The notes beneath the pieces were generated by a model. That model was given only the letters and a program-made list of their open reading frames with translations. It did not search any database and was not told the origin of the DNA. A stretch of 64,000 nt of DNA, taken from contig JASHNU010000004.1 in NCBI GenBank assembly GCA_030041475.1, positions 1 to 64,000 on the forward strand. The letters run 5' to 3'. The DNA comes from Candidatus Sulfotelmatobacter sp. (GTDB lineage Bacteria; Acidobacteriota; Terriglobia; Terriglobales; Acidobacteriaceae). Made by a program: the position numbers and the translations under genes. Below, piece after piece: positions 54,480-62,337 of this stretch; position 1 is the first letter of the stretch; the number at the start of each line of letters is the position of its first letter.

Positions 54480-55409
54480 TCAGCGCCGGGACTTCGCCGG
54501 CACCTTGCCTTCCTTCAGGAACGTTCCTTCCTGCAGCTCCGTGAAGGCGTGCTGCAGTTCTGCCTGTGTGTTCATCACGATGGGGCCGTACCAGGCGACG
54601 GGCTCCTCCAGCGGTTTTCCCGAAACCAGCAGAAATCGGATTCCATCGTCTCCGGCCTGAACGGTGACTTCGTCGCCTCGATCAAAAAGAATCAGCGAGC
54701 GGTTGTCGGCTTCGACGGGCGGGGCGGTGTCCAGCCATTTCACCGCCTCGGTCGGCACGGCGAGTGGAGCCGATGCGTTGCAGAACTTTCCGCTGCCAGA
54801 AAAAACGTAGGCAAACGCGTGACGAACCGTTTCCACAGGCAGTGTTTTTCGCTTGCCCGGGGCGACGGACACGTCGAGATACATCGGATCGGCGGCAACT
54901 CCCTGCACGGGGCCAGTCTTTCCCCAGAAATTTCCGCAGACCACCCGCACGTGCGTGCCATCGTCATCGGTGATTTCAGGAATCTCGCCGGACTTCACTT
55001 CCTGATAACGCGGAGCGGTCATCTTCAGCGCGGATGGCAGATTCCCCCACAACTGAAATCCGTGCATCCGTCCTGTGCCGTCACCTTTCGGCATTTCCTG
55101 ATGGATAATGCCGCTGCCGGCGGTCATCCACTGCACATCGCCCGGCCCGATGACGCCGGCGTTCCCGATGCTGTCGCCATGAGCCACTGTGCCGGTCAGC
55201 ACGTAGGTGATCGTCTCGATGCCGCGATGCGGATGCCAGGGAAATCCGGCAAGGTAGTCCTCGGGAACGTCGTTGCGGAAGTCGTCGAGCAACAGAAACG
55301 GGTCAAAATCCTTTGTGTTTCCAAATCCGAAGGCGCGGCGAAGATGGACGCCGGCGCCCTCCAGCGTGGGTTTGGATTTAATAACGCGTTTAATCGGCCG
55401 GATGGACAT
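54480..55409 (-). CDS. Pirin-family protein
   Basis: A 309-residue bicupin. The N-terminal cupin holds the metal site: FPWHPHRGIETITYVLTG (two His), AHGDSIGN, and GSGIIHQEMP (His, Glu). The C-terminal pirin domain includes AYVFSGSGKFCN and RFLLVSGKPLEEPVAWYGPIVMNT. Bacterial pirins have been linked to redox sensing and quercetinase activity. CAGGAG precedes start 55409. It lies 29 nt downstream of egtD on the same strand, so it may belong to the ergothioneine operon. Confidence 0.9.
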   Translation of the reverse strand: MSIRPIKRVIKSKPTLEGAGVHLRRAFGFGNTKDFDPFLLLDDFRNDVPEDYLAGFPWHPHRGIETITYVLTGTVAHGDSIGNAGVIGPGDVQWMTAGSGIIHQEMPKGDGTGRMHGFQLWGNLPSALKMTAPRYQEVKSGEIPEITDDDGTHVRVVCGNFWGKTGPVQGVAADPMYLDVSVAPGKRKTLPVETVRHAFAYVFSGSGKFCNASAPLAVPTEAVKWLDTAPPVEADNRSLILFDRGDEVTVQAGDDGIRFLLVSGKPLEEPVAWYGPIVMNTQAELQHAFTELQEGTFLKEGKVPAKSRR

Positions 55410-55438
55410 ATGAGTCTCCTGGGACAAGACTTCGAGTG

Positions 55439-56407
55439 CTATTCCGCGATAAGCAGGCTCTCGGCAAAAGGCCACTGCTCATCGATCCACTGAGCATCGC
55501 AGCGGAACCCCGCATCGCGTGCGGTCAGAAATATTTCATCCGCGGAATATTTGTGGCTGCTCTCGGTCCAGATTGTTTCTCCCTGAAGAAAGTCGACAAC
55601 GATTTCTGCGGCCGGAATAGTCACGGTCTGCCGCTGCAGGGAACGCAAATGCATCTCGACGCAACGCCCGTCCTGGCTGATCTTTGCCTGATGGGCAAAC
55701 TGACCAAGGTCGAAGTCGGCATCCAATTCGCGATTGATGCGCACCAGCAGGTTCAAGTCAAACGCGGCGGTCACGCCGAGTTCATCGTCATAGGCGTGGA
55801 GCAGTTGCGTATTGGATTTTTCCAGATCCGTGCCCAGAAGCAACGAATCGCCGGACTCAAGAATCTGGCGAACTTCCGCCAGGAACTTCACTCCTGCCAG
55901 CCGATCAAAATTTCCGATTGTGCTTCCCAGAAACAAGACTAGCAGATGTTGGCCGGCCTTGCGCTGCGCCGCGACCTCCAGCAAGCCGTCGAGATACTCG
56001 CGCTCGAAACCCACGATGCTGATCGAATCTATGTCACCAAGTTCGCGCTCGCACTTGGCCAGAGCCAAACGAGAAATTTCGACCGGATAATAAAAAGTAC
56101 GCTGGCGCCGGCAAAGCGCTTCCAGCAACCAGCGCGTTTTCCGGCCGCTGCCGCTGCCCAGTTCGGCGACCGCAACTGGCCCTGCCAGAAGATCGACGAT
56201 CTCGTGGGAGTAGCGCCGTAGCAACCGCTCATCGGCACGCGTCAGGCCGTACTCGGGCAGATGGCTGATCACTTCGAAAAGCGCCGAGCCCACGTCGTCG
56301 TAGAGATATTTGCAGGGAAGTTGCTTCTGTCCCTCCCGCGTAAGCCCGGCACGCACGTCGGACGCAAACTCGTAGGTGGCATCGGTGGTAATGGCGTGGA
56401 CGAGCAT
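55439..56407 (-). CDS. egtD: L-histidine N-alpha-methyltransferase EgtD
   Basis: A 322-residue SAM-dependent enzyme that makes hercynine, the first step of ergothioneine synthesis. LPCKYLYDDVGSALFEVISHLPEYGLTRAD is the family-specific start; AELGSGSGRKTRWLLEAL is the SAM loop; LLVLFLGSTIGNF follows; and FHL/LVRINRELDADFDL is the histidine-binding region. AAAGGAG precedes ATG. egtB is 23 nt upstream on the same strand. Confidence 0.92.
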   Translation of the reverse strand: MLVHAITTDATYEFASDVRAGLTREGQKQLPCKYLYDDVGSALFEVISHLPEYGLTRADERLLRRYSHEIVDLLAGPVAVAELGSGSGRKTRWLLEALCRRQRTFYYPVEISRLALAKCERELGDIDSISIVGFEREYLDGLLEVAAQRKAGQHLLVLFLGSTIGNFDRLAGVKFLAEVRQILESGDSLLLGTDLEKSNTQLLHAYDDELGVTAAFDLNLLVRINRELDADFDLGQFAHQAKISQDGRCVEMHLRSLQRQTVTIPAAEIVVDFLQGETIWTESSHKYSADEIFLTARDAGFRCDAQWIDEQWPFAESLLIAE

Positions 56408-56430: not shown

Positions 56431-57768
56431 TCAGCGATTCACGCAGCGGAAGCCGGCATACACGTACTGGTAGTGGGGCTGAAACCAGTTGCGAAATGTC
56501 GGCCGCAGCATGCAGGTGGATGTGCGCGCTGATCCGCCTTTCATGACGAAGTGGCGGCCGTCAAAAAAGTCCGCTGAGTATCCGCGATAGAAAGGGAACG
56601 GCTGAAATCCGGGAAAGGACGAAAAAACCGAAGATGTCCATTCCCATCCGTTGCCCAGCATGCCGCTGACGCCGAACGCGGAGTCGCCAGCGGGAAATGC
56701 GCTCACTGCCTGCGGATCCCACGAGTTGAAGTCAAAGTTACCGAAGCGCGAAGCCAACGCTGCGCTGCCCCATGGGTAGGTTCGTCCGTCCCCGTCACCT
56801 TCGTTCGCGGATCCATATGCGGCTCGGTGCCACTCTTCTTCGGTCGGAAGCGACCTGCCAGTCCACCGTGCATAGGCCGATGCCTCGGCGTGACTCACGT
56901 AAACCGGCCAGTCCAAGGGCAACGGAATTCCCTCAAACATCGCGCGGTAAAACCACCGGTCTCCTATCTTGTTCCAGAACACAGGATGCGTGATTCCGCA
57001 TTCTGTTCTCCATTTCCAGTCAGGTTCGTTCCAGAGCGTGCGCGCATCGTAGCCGCCGGCGCGGATGAATTCGAGATACTGCCGGTTCGTCACCATGTAT
57101 CGATCGATTTCGAACGCGGGCACGGCAATTTCGTACGATTCGAATTCGTTGTCCCACCCGAACGCGCTGTTGTCCCGCGACAGTCCAAGCTTCGCTATGC
57201 CAGCCGGAATTTGAGCCATCCGCGGTGTCACCGGCGGAGTCGCCGCCGACGCAGAGCTTGATTGCGGGACCTTCTTGTCGAAGGACAACTGATGGAGCAT
57301 GTAGGCCAAAGTCTCGAGATGCATGAGACGATGCTCAACCGCGACATTGAGCAAAATGGCGAGGGGAAAGCCCTTCGCGTCGCCGGTTGGCGGGGTGTCG
57401 TGGTCAAGTTTGGCATCGAGAGTGGACCGGACCTCACCGACGTAATCGCGCACAGAATCAACTGCGGGCCAGTCTTTCGGCTGGTCGGTGGGCAATCCTC
57501 TGCCGACCGGATCAATGCCGAAGGCAAACAGCCGGTCAAATTCAGGATGGAAACTCTTTTCGCCCAGGACGTTCGCGTGCAGAAGATTCCAGTCGAAGGC
57601 CTCCAGGTGCCCAACATAAAAAATGATGCGATGCCGCTCCGGAATCGGCCGGTCGTACAGCGCAGCCGGGCGCACTAACTTGAATAACGCATCGCTTCGC
57701 TCTCGTGCGTCGAGGAGCCGCTGCAACAGTTGCTGCCTGATTGTCAGATCTTCCTGCACAGCGATCAT
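56431..57768 (-). CDS. egtB: Ergothioneine-type sulfoxide synthase EgtB
   Basis: A 445-residue non-haem iron enzyme that joins a thiol to hercynine with O2. The DinB-like N-terminal domain supplies His54 (FYVGHLEAFDW) and His146/His150 (EHRLMHLETLAYML); the C-terminal FGE-type domain runs to WEWTSSVFSSFPGFQP and YQYVYAGFRCVNR. ATG 57768 with GGGGGA upstream is preferred to GTG 57780. Thiol donor (cysteine or gamma-glutamylcysteine) cannot be read directly; absence of egtA and egtC nearby favours cysteine. Confidence 0.9.
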   Translation of the reverse strand: MIAVQEDLTIRQQLLQRLLDARERSDALFKLVRPAALYDRPIPERHRIIFYVGHLEAFDWNLLHANVLGEKSFHPEFDRLFAFGIDPVGRGLPTDQPKDWPAVDSVRDYVGEVRSTLDAKLDHDTPPTGDAKGFPLAILLNVAVEHRLMHLETLAYMLHQLSFDKKVPQSSSASAATPPVTPRMAQIPAGIAKLGLSRDNSAFGWDNEFESYEIAVPAFEIDRYMVTNRQYLEFIRAGGYDARTLWNEPDWKWRTECGITHPVFWNKIGDRWFYRAMFEGIPLPLDWPVYVSHAEASAYARWTGRSLPTEEEWHRAAYGSANEGDGDGRTYPWGSAALASRFGNFDFNSWDPQAVSAFPAGDSAFGVSGMLGNGWEWTSSVFSSFPGFQPFPFYRGYSADFFDGRHFVMKGGSARTSTCMLRPTFRNWFQPHYQYVYAGFRCVNR

Positions 57769-57808
57769 TTGGTCCCCCACGTCATCCCCTCAATTTGCCC
57801 GCAGTGGC

Positions 57809-58108
57809 TCAGGCTCCGCGTTCGACCGGCACGAAGCCTTCAGGCCGCAACTCACCCGGTTCAAGCTGGTCCACGTAGCACCACACCCAGGCTTCTCCCG
57901 GCTCGACCGAGCGCATCAGCGGATGCTTTGTATGATGAAAATGCTTGGTCGCGTGCTTGTTCTTCGACGAATCACAGCAGCCGACATGGCCACATTCCAG
58001 GCACATTCGCAGATGAACCCAGGTGTCGCCGGTTTTGACGCAGTCCTCGCAAAAGTGTTTGTCGGTGCTGGTGAATTTGATCTGATTCAGATGCTTGCAT
58101 AGAGCCAT
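57809..58108 (-). CDS. UBP-type zinc-finger protein
   Basis: A 99-residue protein that is essentially one zf-UBP domain: CKHLNQIKFTSTDKHFCEDCVK, MCLECGHVGCCDSSKNKHATKHFHHTKHPLMRSV, WVWCYVD. The Cys/His set could bind three zinc ions. In eukaryotes this fold binds ubiquitin C-termini; bacterial versions are often fused or adjacent to thioredoxin-reductase-like flavoproteins, as here (next gene upstream ends 53 nt away). GGAGG precedes the ATG. Confidence 0.88.
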   Translation of the reverse strand: MALCKHLNQIKFTSTDKHFCEDCVKTGDTWVHLRMCLECGHVGCCDSSKNKHATKHFHHTKHPLMRSVEPGEAWVWCYVDQLEPGELRPEGFVPVERGA

Positions 58109-58160: not shown

Positions 58161-59843
58161 TCACAGCTCCGCTAGAGTGCGATGCACCAGGTGAACCGAG
58201 ATGGCGCCCTCGCCCACCGCGGACGCCACGCGCTTAACATTCCCCGCCCGAACATCTCCGACAGCAAAGACTCCCGGAAGGCTGGTCTCAAGCATCTGCG
58301 GAGCCCGCGACAACGGCCAGGCAATGGCGCCGTCGGAGCCTCGCAAAGGATCGAGATCGCGCCCGGTCAGGATGAAACCCTTGTCGTCCATGGCTACACA
58401 TCCGCGCAGCCATTCGGTTCTAGGCGATGCTCCGGCCATGATGAACAAGTGGCGAATTTCGTGCGCTGAAGTTTGGCCGGTGACCTTGTCGCGCCAGGAG
58501 ACGCATTCAAGGTGCGTGTTTCCATCCAAACTAACGATCTCGGTGTTGCAGCGCAGATCAATCGCCGGATTCTCCGCAATTCGCTGGATCAGATAACGGG
58601 ACATGCTATCGGCCAGCCCGCTGGAGCGTACAAGCATGTGGACTTTGCTGGCACTCTGCGACAAGTAAACTGCAGCCTGCCCGGCGGAGTTCCCGCCGCC
58701 GACCACGATGACTTCTTCATCCCCACACAGCTGGGCTTCAATGTAGGTTGCGCCGTAGTAAACACCCTGGCCTTCGAACTGTTTGAGATTAACGATTGGC
58801 GGCTTGTTGTACTGGGCGCCGGTGGCGATGACGATGGCCCGTGTCGCCAGTTCGCTGCCGTCATCGAGGATCACCTTGTAGGGGCGGACGTCGCAATTCA
58901 ACCGGGCGACGCTGTGAGCGATCATCATGCGCGCGCCAAATTTCTGCGCCTGCGTGACCGCGCGTGACGCCAACTCGAAGCCGGACACGCCGGTTGGGAA
59001 GCCGAGATAGTTTTCGATCTTGGAACTTGACCCGGCCTGCCCGCCGGGTGCCTCTGTTTCAATCACCAGAGCGTCAAGGCCCTCGGAAGCAGCGTAAACA
59101 GCTGCTGCCAGCCCCGAAGGACCTGCGCCCACGATGATCAAATCGCGAACGTGCGAGTTGTCGAGACTGGCGTTCAAGCCAATACAATCCGCCAGTTTTT
59201 GCGGAGAGGGGCTGCGCAGGACGAGTCCAGTGGCGTTACAAATCACGACCGGAATCTCTTCCACCTTCACTGCAAACCGATCAAGAAGCTCCTGCGACAT
59301 CTTGTCCGTGTCAAGGTCGACATACGTGTAGGGGTACGCGTTACGGCTGAGGAATTCGCGTAAACGCAATGTGGAAGCCGAATGCCGTGACCCCATCAGA
59401 ATCATGTTCCCCAGGTGATTGGTGATGAGAGCGAGGCGGCGCAGAATAAACGCGCGCATGACGATCTCGCTCAACTCCGCGTCCCTGGCGATGAGCGCGC
59501 GCAGGCCTTCGGTGCTCAATGCGAGAACTTCGCCGGACCTCGTGATGCGCCCAAGGACTAAGCACCGCTGCCCGGAGATCATGCTGAGTTCACCGGTAAA
59601 TCCCGCGGCGTGATGCGTGGTGATGAGCTTCTCGCCGTCGATTGCTGGCTGAACGATCTCCAATTCGCCCGACAGCAGAACAAAGAATGGGACATTCATG
59701 TCCCCCGGTCGAAACAAAATATCGCCCGACTCGACTCGGCGATGCACGCTGCCTATGCGGATGCGATCGATCTGGGCAGGAGTCAGATCCGGGAAAATCT
59801 GAGTTCGAGAATCCAGCGCACTTGGTATGGGAAAGGTGGACAT
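58161..59843 (-). CDS. cNMP-binding thioredoxin-reductase-like flavoprotein without CxxC
   Basis: A 560-residue three-part protein. Residues 15-130: cyclic-nucleotide-binding domain with GELSMISGQRCLV, the phosphate cassette keeping Glu and Arg93. Residues 150-222: thioredoxin/glutaredoxin-like domain without a CxxC. Residues 233-560: thioredoxin-reductase fold with FAD motif GAGPSG (239-244), NADPH motif GGGNSA (382-387) and FAVGD (526-530). The redox pair CATC of true reductases is replaced by GATY (364-367), so disulfide reduction by the usual route is not expected. Possible regulation by cAMP or similar. It lies upstream of the UBP zinc finger gene, probably in one transcript. Confidence 0.88.
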   Translation of the reverse strand: MSTFPIPSALDSRTQIFPDLTPAQIDRIRIGSVHRRVESGDILFRPGDMNVPFFVLLSGELEIVQPAIDGEKLITTHHAAGFTGELSMISGQRCLVLGRITRSGEVLALSTEGLRALIARDAELSEIVMRAFILRRLALITNHLGNMILMGSRHSASTLRLREFLSRNAYPYTYVDLDTDKMSQELLDRFAVKVEEIPVVICNATGLVLRSPSPQKLADCIGLNASLDNSHVRDLIIVGAGPSGLAAAVYAASEGLDALVIETEAPGGQAGSSSKIENYLGFPTGVSGFELASRAVTQAQKFGARMMIAHSVARLNCDVRPYKVILDDGSELATRAIVIATGAQYNKPPIVNLKQFEGQGVYYGATYIEAQLCGDEEVIVVGGGNSAGQAAVYLSQSASKVHMLVRSSGLADSMSRYLIQRIAENPAIDLRCNTEIVSLDGNTHLECVSWRDKVTGQTSAHEIRHLFIMAGASPRTEWLRGCVAMDDKGFILTGRDLDPLRGSDGAIAWPLSRAPQMLETSLPGVFAVGDVRAGNVKRVASAVGEGAISVHLVHRTLAEL

Positions 59844-60036: not shown

Positions 60037-62337
60037 TTGAAGCCGAACCGTCTCTTATTCTGCTGCCTGTTTTCCTGCTGCATCATTCTGCTTGCGCCAA
60101 GCAACTTCGCCCAGACCACTCCAGCCAAAACCGGCGATTCTGCCCGCTTCCTAGGCTACACTGCGCAATCATCTGGGCCCGAGCGCGACTGGGAGAAAAA
60201 ATTTCAGGATGGCATTGTCCGCGATAACGTCCGCGAGTACATGCGCCGCATGAGCGCCCGCCCGCATCACGTAGGTTCTCCGTATGACAAGGACAATGCC
60301 GACTGGATTTTGTCGAAATTCAAGGAGTTCGGCTTCGATGCGCACATCGAGACTTTCCAGGTCCTGTTTCCGACGCCGAAAGAGCGCGTGGTCGAAATGA
60401 TCGCGCCCACTACGTTCCGCGCCAAGCTGCAGGAGCCTCCGGTCGCGGGCGATCCGACCTCGAGCCAGACCTCAGAGCAGTTGCCGACCTACAACGCCTA
60501 TTCGATTGATGGTGACGTCACCGCGCCACTCGTGTACGTGAACTACGGCAACCGTGAAGACTACGAAGAACTCGATCGCCTGGGGATTTCCGTGAAGGGA
60601 GCGATCGTGATCGCGCGCTACGGCGAAGGCTGGCGTGGCATCAAGCCGAAAGTGGCAGGAGAGCACGGCGCGATCGGCTGCATCATTTACTCGGATCCGA
60701 AAGACGACGGCTACTTTAACGGCGACGACTACCCAAAGGGCGGCTGGCGCCCGAAGGACGGCGTGCAGCGCGGCAGCGTAATGGACACCGATTATCCCGG
60801 CGACCCGCTGACGCCGGGCGTGGGTGCAACAGCTGACGCGAAGCGCCTTTCCATCAGCGAAGCCAAGACGATCACCAAAATACCGGTTCTTCCGATTTCG
60901 TGGGGTGATGCGCTGCCCCTGCTCTCCGCGCTCGCCGGCCCGGTTGCGCCGGAAAAATGGCGTGGCGGACTGGGCATTACTTATCACGTGGGCCCGGGGC
61001 CGGCGAAAGTGCATCTTAAGGTCGCGTCGAACTGGGATTTGAAGCCAGTGAACGATGTGATCGCGACGATCCGCGGCTCGGAAGTTCCGGACCAGTGGGT
61101 GATCCGTGGCAATCACCACGACGCATGGGTAAACGGAGCGGACGATCCGTTGTCGGGCATGTCAGCGGTGCTCGAAGAGGCTCGCATGCTCGGCGAACTG
61201 CACAAGCAAGGCTGGAATCCGAAGCGGACCATCATCTACTGTGCGTGGGACGGCGAGGAACCAGGACTGCTCGGCTCCACGGAATGGGTAGAAACGCACG
61301 GCGACGAACTGCAGAAGCATGCCGTGGCCTACATCAACTCGGACAGCAATGGCCGCGGGTTCTTCTATGCTTCCGGTTCGCACGATCTGGAAAAAGTGAT
61401 CAATGACGTGGCCCGCCAGATCAACGACCCGGAAAAAGACATTTCGGTCTGGCAAAGGGCGCGGCTGGCACGAATCTCGCGGGCACGGAACCAGGAAGAT
61501 CGGAATGAAATTCGCAAGCGCACGGAGCTTTCGATCGGCTCGCTGGGAGACGGCTCCGACTACGCTTCGTTCCTCGATCATGCGGGCATTTCGGCGCTGA
61601 ATATTGGCTACGGCGGTGAAAACGATGCGGACGCCTACCACTCCATTTATGACGACTTTTACTGGTACACGCACTTCATGGACACGGATTTCTCCTATGG
61701 ACGCGCTCTGGCGCAAACCGGCGGCACGGCCGTCCTGCGCCTGGCCGATGCCGAACTGATCCCGTACGAGTACACGGAAATGGCGGAGCAGATCGGCAAG
61801 TATGTGACTGAACTGGAGAAGCAGTTAAAGGACAAGCAGGAGGAAATCACCGAGCGCAATCTCGAGTTGAAGGAGGGAGTCTTCTCTGCGGTCGCCGACC
61901 CGCGCAAAACGTCGGTGCCTCCACCGCGCGAAACTGTTCCGCCGTACATGAATTTTGCTCCGCTGAAGAATGCAGTGGAGTCCATCAAGCGAAGCGCGGA
62001 GCGTTATCAGGCCGCCGCGACGAAGGCGCAGGCCGAAGGGGTCACGCTCTCTGCGGAAGCGCTCAACTCCATCAACACCGATCTGCTGAAGGTCCAGCGC
62101 ACGTTCCTGACCGAACGCGGCCTTCCCGAGCGGCCTTGGTTCAAGCATCAGGTGTATGCGCCGGGCGCCTATACGGGTTATGGGGCCAAGCCGATTGCCG
62201 CCGTTCGCGAATATATGGACGAGAAAAAGTGGGCGGAGGCGGATGCGCAAATCCCTGGGGTCGCGAAGGTGCTTGAGGACGTCGCGGCCGCGATCGGGAA
62301 AGTTGCGGACGAACTGGACGCAGCGGCTGGGCGTTAA
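60037..62337 (+). CDS. Secreted M28-family peptidase (glutamate carboxypeptidase II-like)
   Basis: A 766-residue exported zinc peptidase. Signal peptide MKPNRLLFCCLFSCCIILLAPSNFAQ; a PA domain around 150-330 (GISVKGAIVIARYGEGWRGIK); catalytic domain with GNHHDAWVNGADDPLSGMSAVLEEAR (first zinc ligands), WDGEEPGLLGSTEW (catalytic Glu) and DADAYHSIYDDFYWY; and a helical C-terminal dimerisation domain. It probably removes C-terminal acidic residues from peptides. The start is TTG, backed by GGGAGGG 4 nt upstream. Confidence 0.9.
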   Translation: MKPNRLLFCCLFSCCIILLAPSNFAQTTPAKTGDSARFLGYTAQSSGPERDWEKKFQDGIVRDNVREYMRRMSARPHHVGSPYDKDNADWILSKFKEFGFDAHIETFQVLFPTPKERVVEMIAPTTFRAKLQEPPVAGDPTSSQTSEQLPTYNAYSIDGDVTAPLVYVNYGNREDYEELDRLGISVKGAIVIARYGEGWRGIKPKVAGEHGAIGCIIYSDPKDDGYFNGDDYPKGGWRPKDGVQRGSVMDTDYPGDPLTPGVGATADAKRLSISEAKTITKIPVLPISWGDALPLLSALAGPVAPEKWRGGLGITYHVGPGPAKVHLKVASNWDLKPVNDVIATIRGSEVPDQWVIRGNHHDAWVNGADDPLSGMSAVLEEARMLGELHKQGWNPKRTIIYCAWDGEEPGLLGSTEWVETHGDELQKHAVAYINSDSNGRGFFYASGSHDLEKVINDVARQINDPEKDISVWQRARLARISRARNQEDRNEIRKRTELSIGSLGDGSDYASFLDHAGISALNIGYGGENDADAYHSIYDDFYWYTHFMDTDFSYGRALAQTGGTAVLRLADAELIPYEYTEMAEQIGKYVTELEKQLKDKQEEITERNLELKEGVFSAVADPRKTSVPPPRETVPPYMNFAPLKNAVESIKRSAERYQAAATKAQAEGVTLSAEALNSINTDLLKVQRTFLTERGLPERPWFKHQVYAPGAYTGYGAKPIAAVREYMDEKKWAEADAQIPGVAKVLEDVAAAIGKVADELDAAAGR

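Follow-up and report, generated by a model that had tools for sequence, protein, structure and literature searches.

A thioredoxin-reductase-like flavoprotein without the CxxC motif and with an N-terminal cyclic-nucleotide-binding-type domain in Candidatus Sulfotelmatobacter sp.

The DNA analysed here, a stretch of 64,000 nucleotides from Candidatus Sulfotelmatobacter sp. (the window), encodes the flavoprotein P0001, in which a domain of the cyclic-nucleotide-binding (CNB) type is followed by a glutaredoxin-like domain and by a domain with the fold of thioredoxin reductase (TrxR) that lacks the redox-active cysteines. On balance, and with a confidence slightly better than even that applies to the general mechanism only, we favour the reading that P0001 is an FAD enzyme of gated activity that oxidises NAD(P)H and uses the TrxR scaffold to deliver electrons directly to an external acceptor. 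This mechanism is suggested by the loss of CxxC throughout the family, combined with conserved FAD and NSAGQ motifs and a separate canonical TrxR in the genome. It is also consistent with the FR-like conformation of the model, the exchange of sensor domains between branches of the family, and the redox and stress genes found nearby.

Domain organisation of P0001 and its gene neighbours

The features of the window that are discussed below are:

58161–59843, minus strand: CxxC-less TrxR-like flavoprotein P0001, open reading frame from ATG to TGA, 560 residues
59481–59741, minus strand: CNB ("cNMP") domain, residues 35–121, with an atypical phosphate-binding cassette (PF00027, 40.2 bits, cut-off 27.5; cassette columns)
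59160–59420, minus strand: glutaredoxin/NrdH-fold domain, residues 142–228, without CxxC (AF2 model, fold match)
58743–58754, minus strand: GATY, residues 364–367, replacing the CATC redox motif (alignment)
57809–58108, minus strand: zf-UBP protein, from its ATG start (PF02148, 5.8e-15; alignment)
56431–57780, minus strand: EgtB/OvoA/SenA-like sulfoxide synthase (FGE-sulfatase and DinB), below all three model cut-offs
55439–56407, minus strand: EgtD-like histidine N-methyltransferase (TIGR03438, 287.2 bits, cut-off 290.9)
54480–55475, minus strand: pirin-family protein, GTG start, last gene of the putative operon (Pfam)

The PF00027 match confirms the original prediction that a cyclic-nucleotide-type domain is fused in front of the flavoprotein. 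The FAD/NAD(P)H TrxR-like domain comprises residues ~232–560 (PF07992 at residues 234–546, 118 bits). The segment between them has no Pfam match. The AF2 model of residues 142–228 alone (pLDDT 87.8) resembles BC3987 (3zit), with a Z score of 12.8 and an rmsd of 1.6 Å over 77 residues, and is thus of the glutaredoxin/NrdH type, at a best Foldseek E-value of only 1e-3. The residues SAST, as read by eye from the sequence, occupy the position of the CPYC of glutaredoxins, in line with the earlier claim that the middle domain also lacks CxxC.

The full-length model has a mean pLDDT of 84.1, with residues 275–284 below 50, and ends in a helix formed by residues 539–559 (single chain). Its TrxR part superimposes onto the FR state of Lactococcus TrxR with an rmsd of 1.9 Å over 302 residues; the corresponding value for its FO state is 6.6 Å over 300 residues. 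The three best Foldseek matches are AhpF structures, with a poor overall rmsd of 14–20 Å. AhpF and P0001 share a thioredoxin-fold domain ahead of the TrxR domain; however, AhpF contains CxxC in both modules, and P0001 contains none. The order of PF00027, glutaredoxin-fold, and TrxR-like domains in P0001 is that of the RefSeq family "cyclic nucleotide-binding domain-containing thioredoxin-disulfide reductase", whose members similarly combine CNB and TrxR-like parts in ~550 residues. The genes L058 and L080, which bear this name, are rows of the CxxC-less family, the motif of which does not support the disulfide chemistry that the name implies.

The genes for P0001, the zf-UBP protein, the EgtB-like and EgtD-like enzymes, and pirin follow each other in this order on the minus strand, with 52, 28, and 23 bp between the first four and an overlap of 37 bp between the last two, and apparently form an operon. 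The overlap with egtD results from the GTG start of the pirin gene, which has an internal ATG 22 codons further in. The position of the zf-UBP gene given in the original prediction, 57809–58108, fits its ATG start, and the protein has all the Cys and His residues that are invariant among 30 aligned relatives. The EgtB-like protein scores 260.3 with TIGR03440 (cut-off 360), 275.5 with the OvoA model (cut-off 400), and 254.9 with the SenA model (cut-off 420). The EgtD-like gene is the only TIGR03438 match in the genome (E ≤ 0.001), and the EgtD homolog in L034 is above the cut-off, at 305.6. The EgtB-like and EgtD-like genes directly downstream were missed by the original prediction, as was the family-wide loss of the motif, and they distinguish P0001 from the RefSeq family and from ATII-TrxR, which is described below. 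On the opposite strand, positions 60037–62337 (plus) encode a putative M28-type peptidase, as judged from the sequence; a gene 95% identical to it adjoins the flavoprotein gene in L032 too.

Missing redox motif and alternative cysteine routes

In alignments, GATY of P0001 falls on the C-A-x-C of solved TrxRs and on the CATC of L002, the canonical TrxR encoded separately in the window genome; one alignment with L002 carries a one-residue gap inside the motif. CxxC is absent from the active site in all 69 family rows but present there in the two canonical TrxRs of the alignment. The replacement of CATC by GATY at residues 364–367, as originally predicted, is thus upheld, and because the motif is missing throughout the family, a mutation of one gene is ruled out as its cause. 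The alignment of 71 rows (69 of the family including P0001, and two canonical TrxRs) was obtained from 81 matching open reading frames by removing those not spanning residues 240–480, duplicates, and the window's own copy. At most five candidates were scored per genome, which makes the copy counts lower bounds. By record names or inference, the family rows come from Acidobacteriota, Bacteroidota, Gemmatimonadota, Actinomycetota, Pseudomonadota, and Cyanobacteriota, with the Acidobacteriota label inferred from relatives (for example L032, Candidatus Sulfotelmatobacter, 89% identity).

The alignment to TrxRs had been proposed as a check. A hidden motif elsewhere in P0001 is ruled out as well, since CxxC is absent from its entire 560 residues. 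Eight of the 69 relatives have a CxxC somewhere else in the protein. Five related rows of the receiver-domain (RR) branch described below (L023, L026, L027, L028, and L031) have in common a CxVC in the FAD domain, just ahead of its ATG motif. In the region of the former CxxC, the family has Ala365 (67/69 rows), Glu369 (63/69), and Cys373 (65/69). Cys373, which follows the second catalytic cysteine position by six residues, is without a conserved partner, because residue 482 is a cysteine in only 32 of the 69 rows. In one relative (G155:C10:29103-30501), the TrxR-like gene is represented by two adjacent matches in separate open frames, which may reflect a frameshift.

NSAGQ, the dinucleotide motif, is conserved in the family, as are the FAD residues, and GGGNSA is kept in P0001. 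The motif HRRxxxR, defined in the available text of PMC8564101 as that of the NADPH 2'-phosphate, reads V405-R406-S407-S408-G409-L410-A411 in P0001, so that R406 is the sole residue retained. The earlier statement that P0001 keeps FAD and NADPH sites therefore holds for the FAD motif and GGGNSA, but not for the 2'-phosphate motif, and with a single arginine left the preference between NADH and NADPH could go either way. In the mechanism that we favour, hydride from NAD(P)H would reduce FAD, as suggested by the FR-like model and by the conservation of the motifs for FAD and the dinucleotide, and the reduced flavin would pass electrons directly to the external acceptor, which may enter at the position of the CATC helix.

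Low-Mr TrxRs (TIGR01292) have the fold, the GxGxxG FAD motif, and the GGGxxA dinucleotide motif in common with P0001, which differs from them in the absence of CxxC and the loss of most of HRRxxxR and scores 224.1 bits against the cut-off of 343.45. YpdA has a TrxR fold without CxxC and a flavin-site cysteine within GGGPCG. P0001 differs from YpdA/Bdr in reading GAGPSG, without the flavin-site cysteine, and in its TIGR04018 score of 69.9 (cut-off 339.9). A CxxC-less TrxR fold is also common to P0001 and the TrxR-like FNRs, which are described in the accessible part of PMC8564101 as reducing external partners and provide a precedent for the general mechanism. In the FNRs, a C-terminal loop lies over the FAD of the neighbouring subunit; the single-chain model of P0001 has the helix 539–559 at this end. 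The shared scaffold without CxxC could indicate that P0001 belongs to the ordinary TrxR-like reductases of ferredoxin/flavodoxin or quinones. However, this is very unlikely, since the sequence of P0001 is nearer to TrxR (5uwy, 142 bits) than to the best chain named "ferredoxin--NADP reductase" (3ab1, 63.3 bits), and the annotated plasmid regions include no gene named ferredoxin or flavodoxin (judged by name; L056 is unannotated). Assignment to the FNRs by fold was set aside: the FNR chain 8c16 (Z 25.3) ranks below many TrxRs in the structural VIA list, a ranking that excludes nothing.

Evidence for another chemistry comes from ATII-TrxR, a CNB-TrxR protein of 552 residues that is reported to share 87% identity with a protein of Cupriavidus metallidurans and to catalyse NADPH-linked reduction of DTNB and thioredoxin, with a Km of 5.21 µM for NADPH and 1.03 µM for ATII-Trx and a kcat of 28.4 per s (PMC6544261, as far as its text is available). 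The cysteines named there are Cys206, 223, 376, and 467; CxxC as a term is absent from the paper. The first three are spaced by 17 and 153 residues. The spacing in L056 from the Cupriavidus metallidurans megaplasmid is identical (17 and 153), and that in P0001 differs by one residue (18 and 153); Cys467 has no counterpart at such spacing in L056 or P0001. Because of the matching spacing and the missing term, we take ATII-TrxR to be apparently a CxxC-less relative of P0001, a relationship judged from the cysteine positions given in PMC6544261 rather than from its sequence. If it is one, thioredoxin reduction in the family would have to follow an unusual route, or else the ATII-TrxR result needs repeating. 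Normal thioredoxin reduction by the purified protein had been named in the original prediction as evidence that would speak against it, and the ATII-TrxR report points in this direction, to the extent that the spacing reflects kinship. The reported kcat is unexpected for a dithiol-free enzyme and counts against the general mechanism, as does the possibility that the widely conserved C373 is catalytic.

These properties of ATII-TrxR would agree with P0001 being a true thioredoxin reductase that acts through C373, through the C202/C220 pair of the glutaredoxin-like domain, or by direct transfer from flavin to thioredoxin. We regard this as possible but rather unlikely. It gains from the presence of trxA beside the gene in all four hand-picked actinobacterial plasmid loci and from the joint occurrence of C202 and C220, which are both cysteines in 29 of the 69 rows, with one present in 2 and neither in 38 (the truncated L018 counted among the latter). 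However, these suggestive counts correspond to only three (starred branches) to four independent pairs on the tree, two of them in the same direction (sign test, p 0.5), and a coevolving redox pair was therefore not accepted. C202 terminates a strand in the model, and C220 is helical. The missing partner of C373, the reliance on spacing for the kinship of ATII-TrxR, and the lack of a counterpart of its Cys467 also argue against a true thioredoxin reductase.

The N-terminal domain as a probable input to the flavoenzyme

In a tree built from the FAD/NAD(P)H part, the rows with a CNB domain (cNMP, 51), with a receiver domain (RR, 15), and with neither (3) each lie on one side of a branch, and P0001 falls inside the cNMP clade. 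The tree is a quick one, with an SH-aLRT support of 98 for the 51 cNMP rows, among which L018 and L044 are truncated before or within the CNB domain. The receiver domain was confirmed by Pfam in all three RR-branch proteins scanned (L026, L063, and L065); the other RR labels are from sequence, and L025/L166 are without the N-terminal part. A histidine kinase is encoded within 5 kb of the gene in 22 of 22 RR-branch loci, and PF00027 was found in four of the five kinase open reading frames scanned, the fifth of which ends at a contig end. A CNB domain is thus either fused to the flavoenzyme or present in a kinase that accompanies a receiver domain, and this swap supports the role of the N-terminal part of P0001 as an input. 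The CNB-fold domain would gate the activity, as would the receiver together with the neighbouring CNB histidine kinase in the sister branch. The core of the original prediction, a TrxR-fold NAD(P)H flavoprotein that combines a sensor-type domain with the absence of an internal dithiol, is supported.

The phosphate-binding cassette of cyclic-nucleotide domains contains a Glu and an Arg-[Ser/Thr/Ala]. In P0001, Glu85 and Arg93 are present, and the latter is followed by a Cys. In the cassette columns of 49 cNMP rows, residue 85 is Glu in 35 and Asp in 14, and residue 93 is Arg in 20. Class III (PF00211) and class I (PF01295) cyclases, the classes covered by the search, were not found in the window genome, which is 99.56% complete; in 14 control genomes, PF00211 matched in five and PF01295 in one. 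The poor conservation of the cassette arginine and the failure to find cyclases of these classes make a cyclic-nucleotide ligand of the P0001 CNB domain doubtful. Of the proposed cyclic-nucleotide control, the role of the N-terminal domain as an input is supported, whereas cAMP or cGMP as the signal is weakly supported.

The exchange of N-terminal sensor domains, together with the CNB kinase encoded next to RR-branch genes, would also be expected if P0001 turned over little and served to sense redox state or NAD(P)H. Its flavin state would then alter the binding of zf-UBP, through which the signal would reach Kef-type antiporters or other targets. Such a sensor is unlikely, as the nucleotide and flavin motifs are those of active enzymes and ATII-TrxR shows turnover according to the accessible text of PMC6544261. 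Further evidence on both sides comes from the antiporter genes considered in the next section.

Gene neighbourhoods and candidate partners

Among the new evidence on the family, its gene neighbourhoods are the most useful. Within 5 kb of the gene at 46 Acidobacteriota places of the cNMP form, the window excluded, EgtB is encoded at 12, EgtD at 10, and zf-UBP at 13. About a quarter of the Acidobacteriota relatives thus have zf-UBP or egtB nearby, and the gene orders are shuffled: flavoprotein-UBP-egtB-egtD-pirin in L032, flavoprotein-egtB-egtD in L033, egtB-egtD-flavoprotein-UBP in L034 and L035, and UBP-flavoprotein-egtB-egtD in L141, with egtBD on the opposite strand in L136–L140. That this company is kept despite the shuffled order speaks for a functional link. 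Neither partner is obligatory, as EgtB was not found at 34 and zf-UBP at 33 of the 46 places within 5 kb or the shorter available flank. The counts combine genome-contig and whole-genome loci, some of which may come from the same organism, and a second family copy in L158 was left out of the counts.

The suggestion that P0001 works with the adjacent zf-UBP protein is strengthened by the occurrence of zf-UBP beside family genes in four phyla, albeit at a minority of the Acidobacteriota places. In Bacteroidota (six loci), zf-UBP accompanies the gene in four, and so does an antiporter (PF00999 in 4/4 scanned). The actinobacterial plasmid loci, in which the gene follows a chaperone-clpB-trxA run, contain trxA and clpB in all four cases and zf-UBP in three. 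A Paraburkholderia plasmid carries a family gene near those for a Clp ATPase, Hsp20, and HdeD. This locus resembles the tLST stress-tolerance island, which also includes trx and kefB according to the available text of PMC8290217. In contrast, no zf-UBP was found within 5 kb in five of seven Pseudomonadota cNMP plasmid loci, which argues against a tight link. The plasmid loci were hand-picked, some for an already seen zf-UBP match nearby, and their flank lengths vary.

In 247 genomes of the window's phylum, 62 zf-UBP places are above the cut-off. A TrxR-like gene is near 10 of them and a canonical TrxR near one, and five are antiporter fusions, one of which is split by a stop; the flanks extend to ~4 kb at most, and less at contig ends, and blast found no zf-UBP in L109. 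An exclusive partnership of zf-UBP with the flavoprotein is ruled out by the 10 of 62. A zf-UBP gene comes immediately after the canonical CxxC TrxR in L095:924-2236. The zf-UBP domain is C-terminal on Kef-type antiporters of Acidobacteriota (L061:3604-6000, L063:2729-4942, L084, and L101) and, on a Deinococcus ficus plasmid (H95/H171), at the C-terminus of a gene annotated as an antiporter. It is fused to an LtrA membrane protein in L064:1658-3109 and precedes a DAC (diadenylate cyclase, DisA-type) domain in L066:3015-4022 (the same place as L108). A recurrent same-strand neighbour of zf-UBP occurs in L132:4366-5280 and 11 further loci, and its stop-to-stop open reading frame starts PGMSPADLTDKWPALPL.

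The zf-UBP–antiporter fusions in L061, L063, and Deinococcus ficus and the antiporters in four of the six Bacteroidota loci favour the sensor reading. On the other hand, an antiporter was found at none of the 46 Acidobacteriota cNMP-form places within 5 kb or the shorter available flank. KefF, an oxidoreductase for comparison, has a quinone-reductase fold and is unrelated to the flavoprotein. As far as the text of PMC10224563 is available, KefC requires this oxidoreductase subunit for full activation, which lends the sensor reading some support; the likeness lies in an oxidoreductase tied to a Kef-type antiporter, whereas the antiporter link of the flavoprotein family consists of gene order and fusion in relatives. 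Under the favoured electron-transfer mechanism, the glutaredoxin-fold domain, devoid of its cysteines, and the zf-UBP protein may serve as docking or adaptor parts. In the window operon, the electrons would most probably go to a thioredoxin-type disulfide or to an oxidised thiol belonging to the EgtB/EgtD-type pathway.

A system of this kind is known, as is evident from the RefSeq name and from work by Burroughs, Iyer and Aravind in 2011, in which bacterial ZF-UBP domains were reportedly predicted to act in a cyclic-nucleotide-dependent redox signalling system. In that system zf-UBP reportedly lies next to a CNB-TrxR-like gene, as it does here. The 2011 work is cited in PMC4506424. The titles and abstract openings of papers found in one open-access library mention neither the missing CxxC nor the Egt link, which we do not claim to be unpublished, and name no ergothioneine-linked TrxR-like enzyme; "cyclic nucleotide" does not occur in the accessible part of a Deinococcus thiol-reductase review (PMC8945050).

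A broader proposal, which we consider improbable, is that, in Acidobacteriota, the gated dithiol-free flavoenzyme uses NAD(P)H to reduce the thiol of an ergothioneine-type system, and that in relatives the same flavin module is coupled by zf-UBP to Kef-type K+/H+ antiporters and acts as their redox subunit. It would then be a general switch with an exchangeable input (a CNB domain, or a CNB kinase and a receiver) and an exchangeable output (a thiol pool or ion transport).

The family, found in six phyla, is partly named thioredoxin-disulfide reductase, yet it lacks the cysteines that define such chemistry, and the sole biochemical report on an apparent relative, ATII-TrxR, seems to be at odds with the motif, as far as the text of PMC6544261 is available. 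The neighbourhoods with Egt, zf-UBP, thioredoxin, chaperone, and antiporter genes provide a short list of candidate partners. If an oxidised thiol of the ergothioneine type is the acceptor, this would suggest how such bacteria recycle it.
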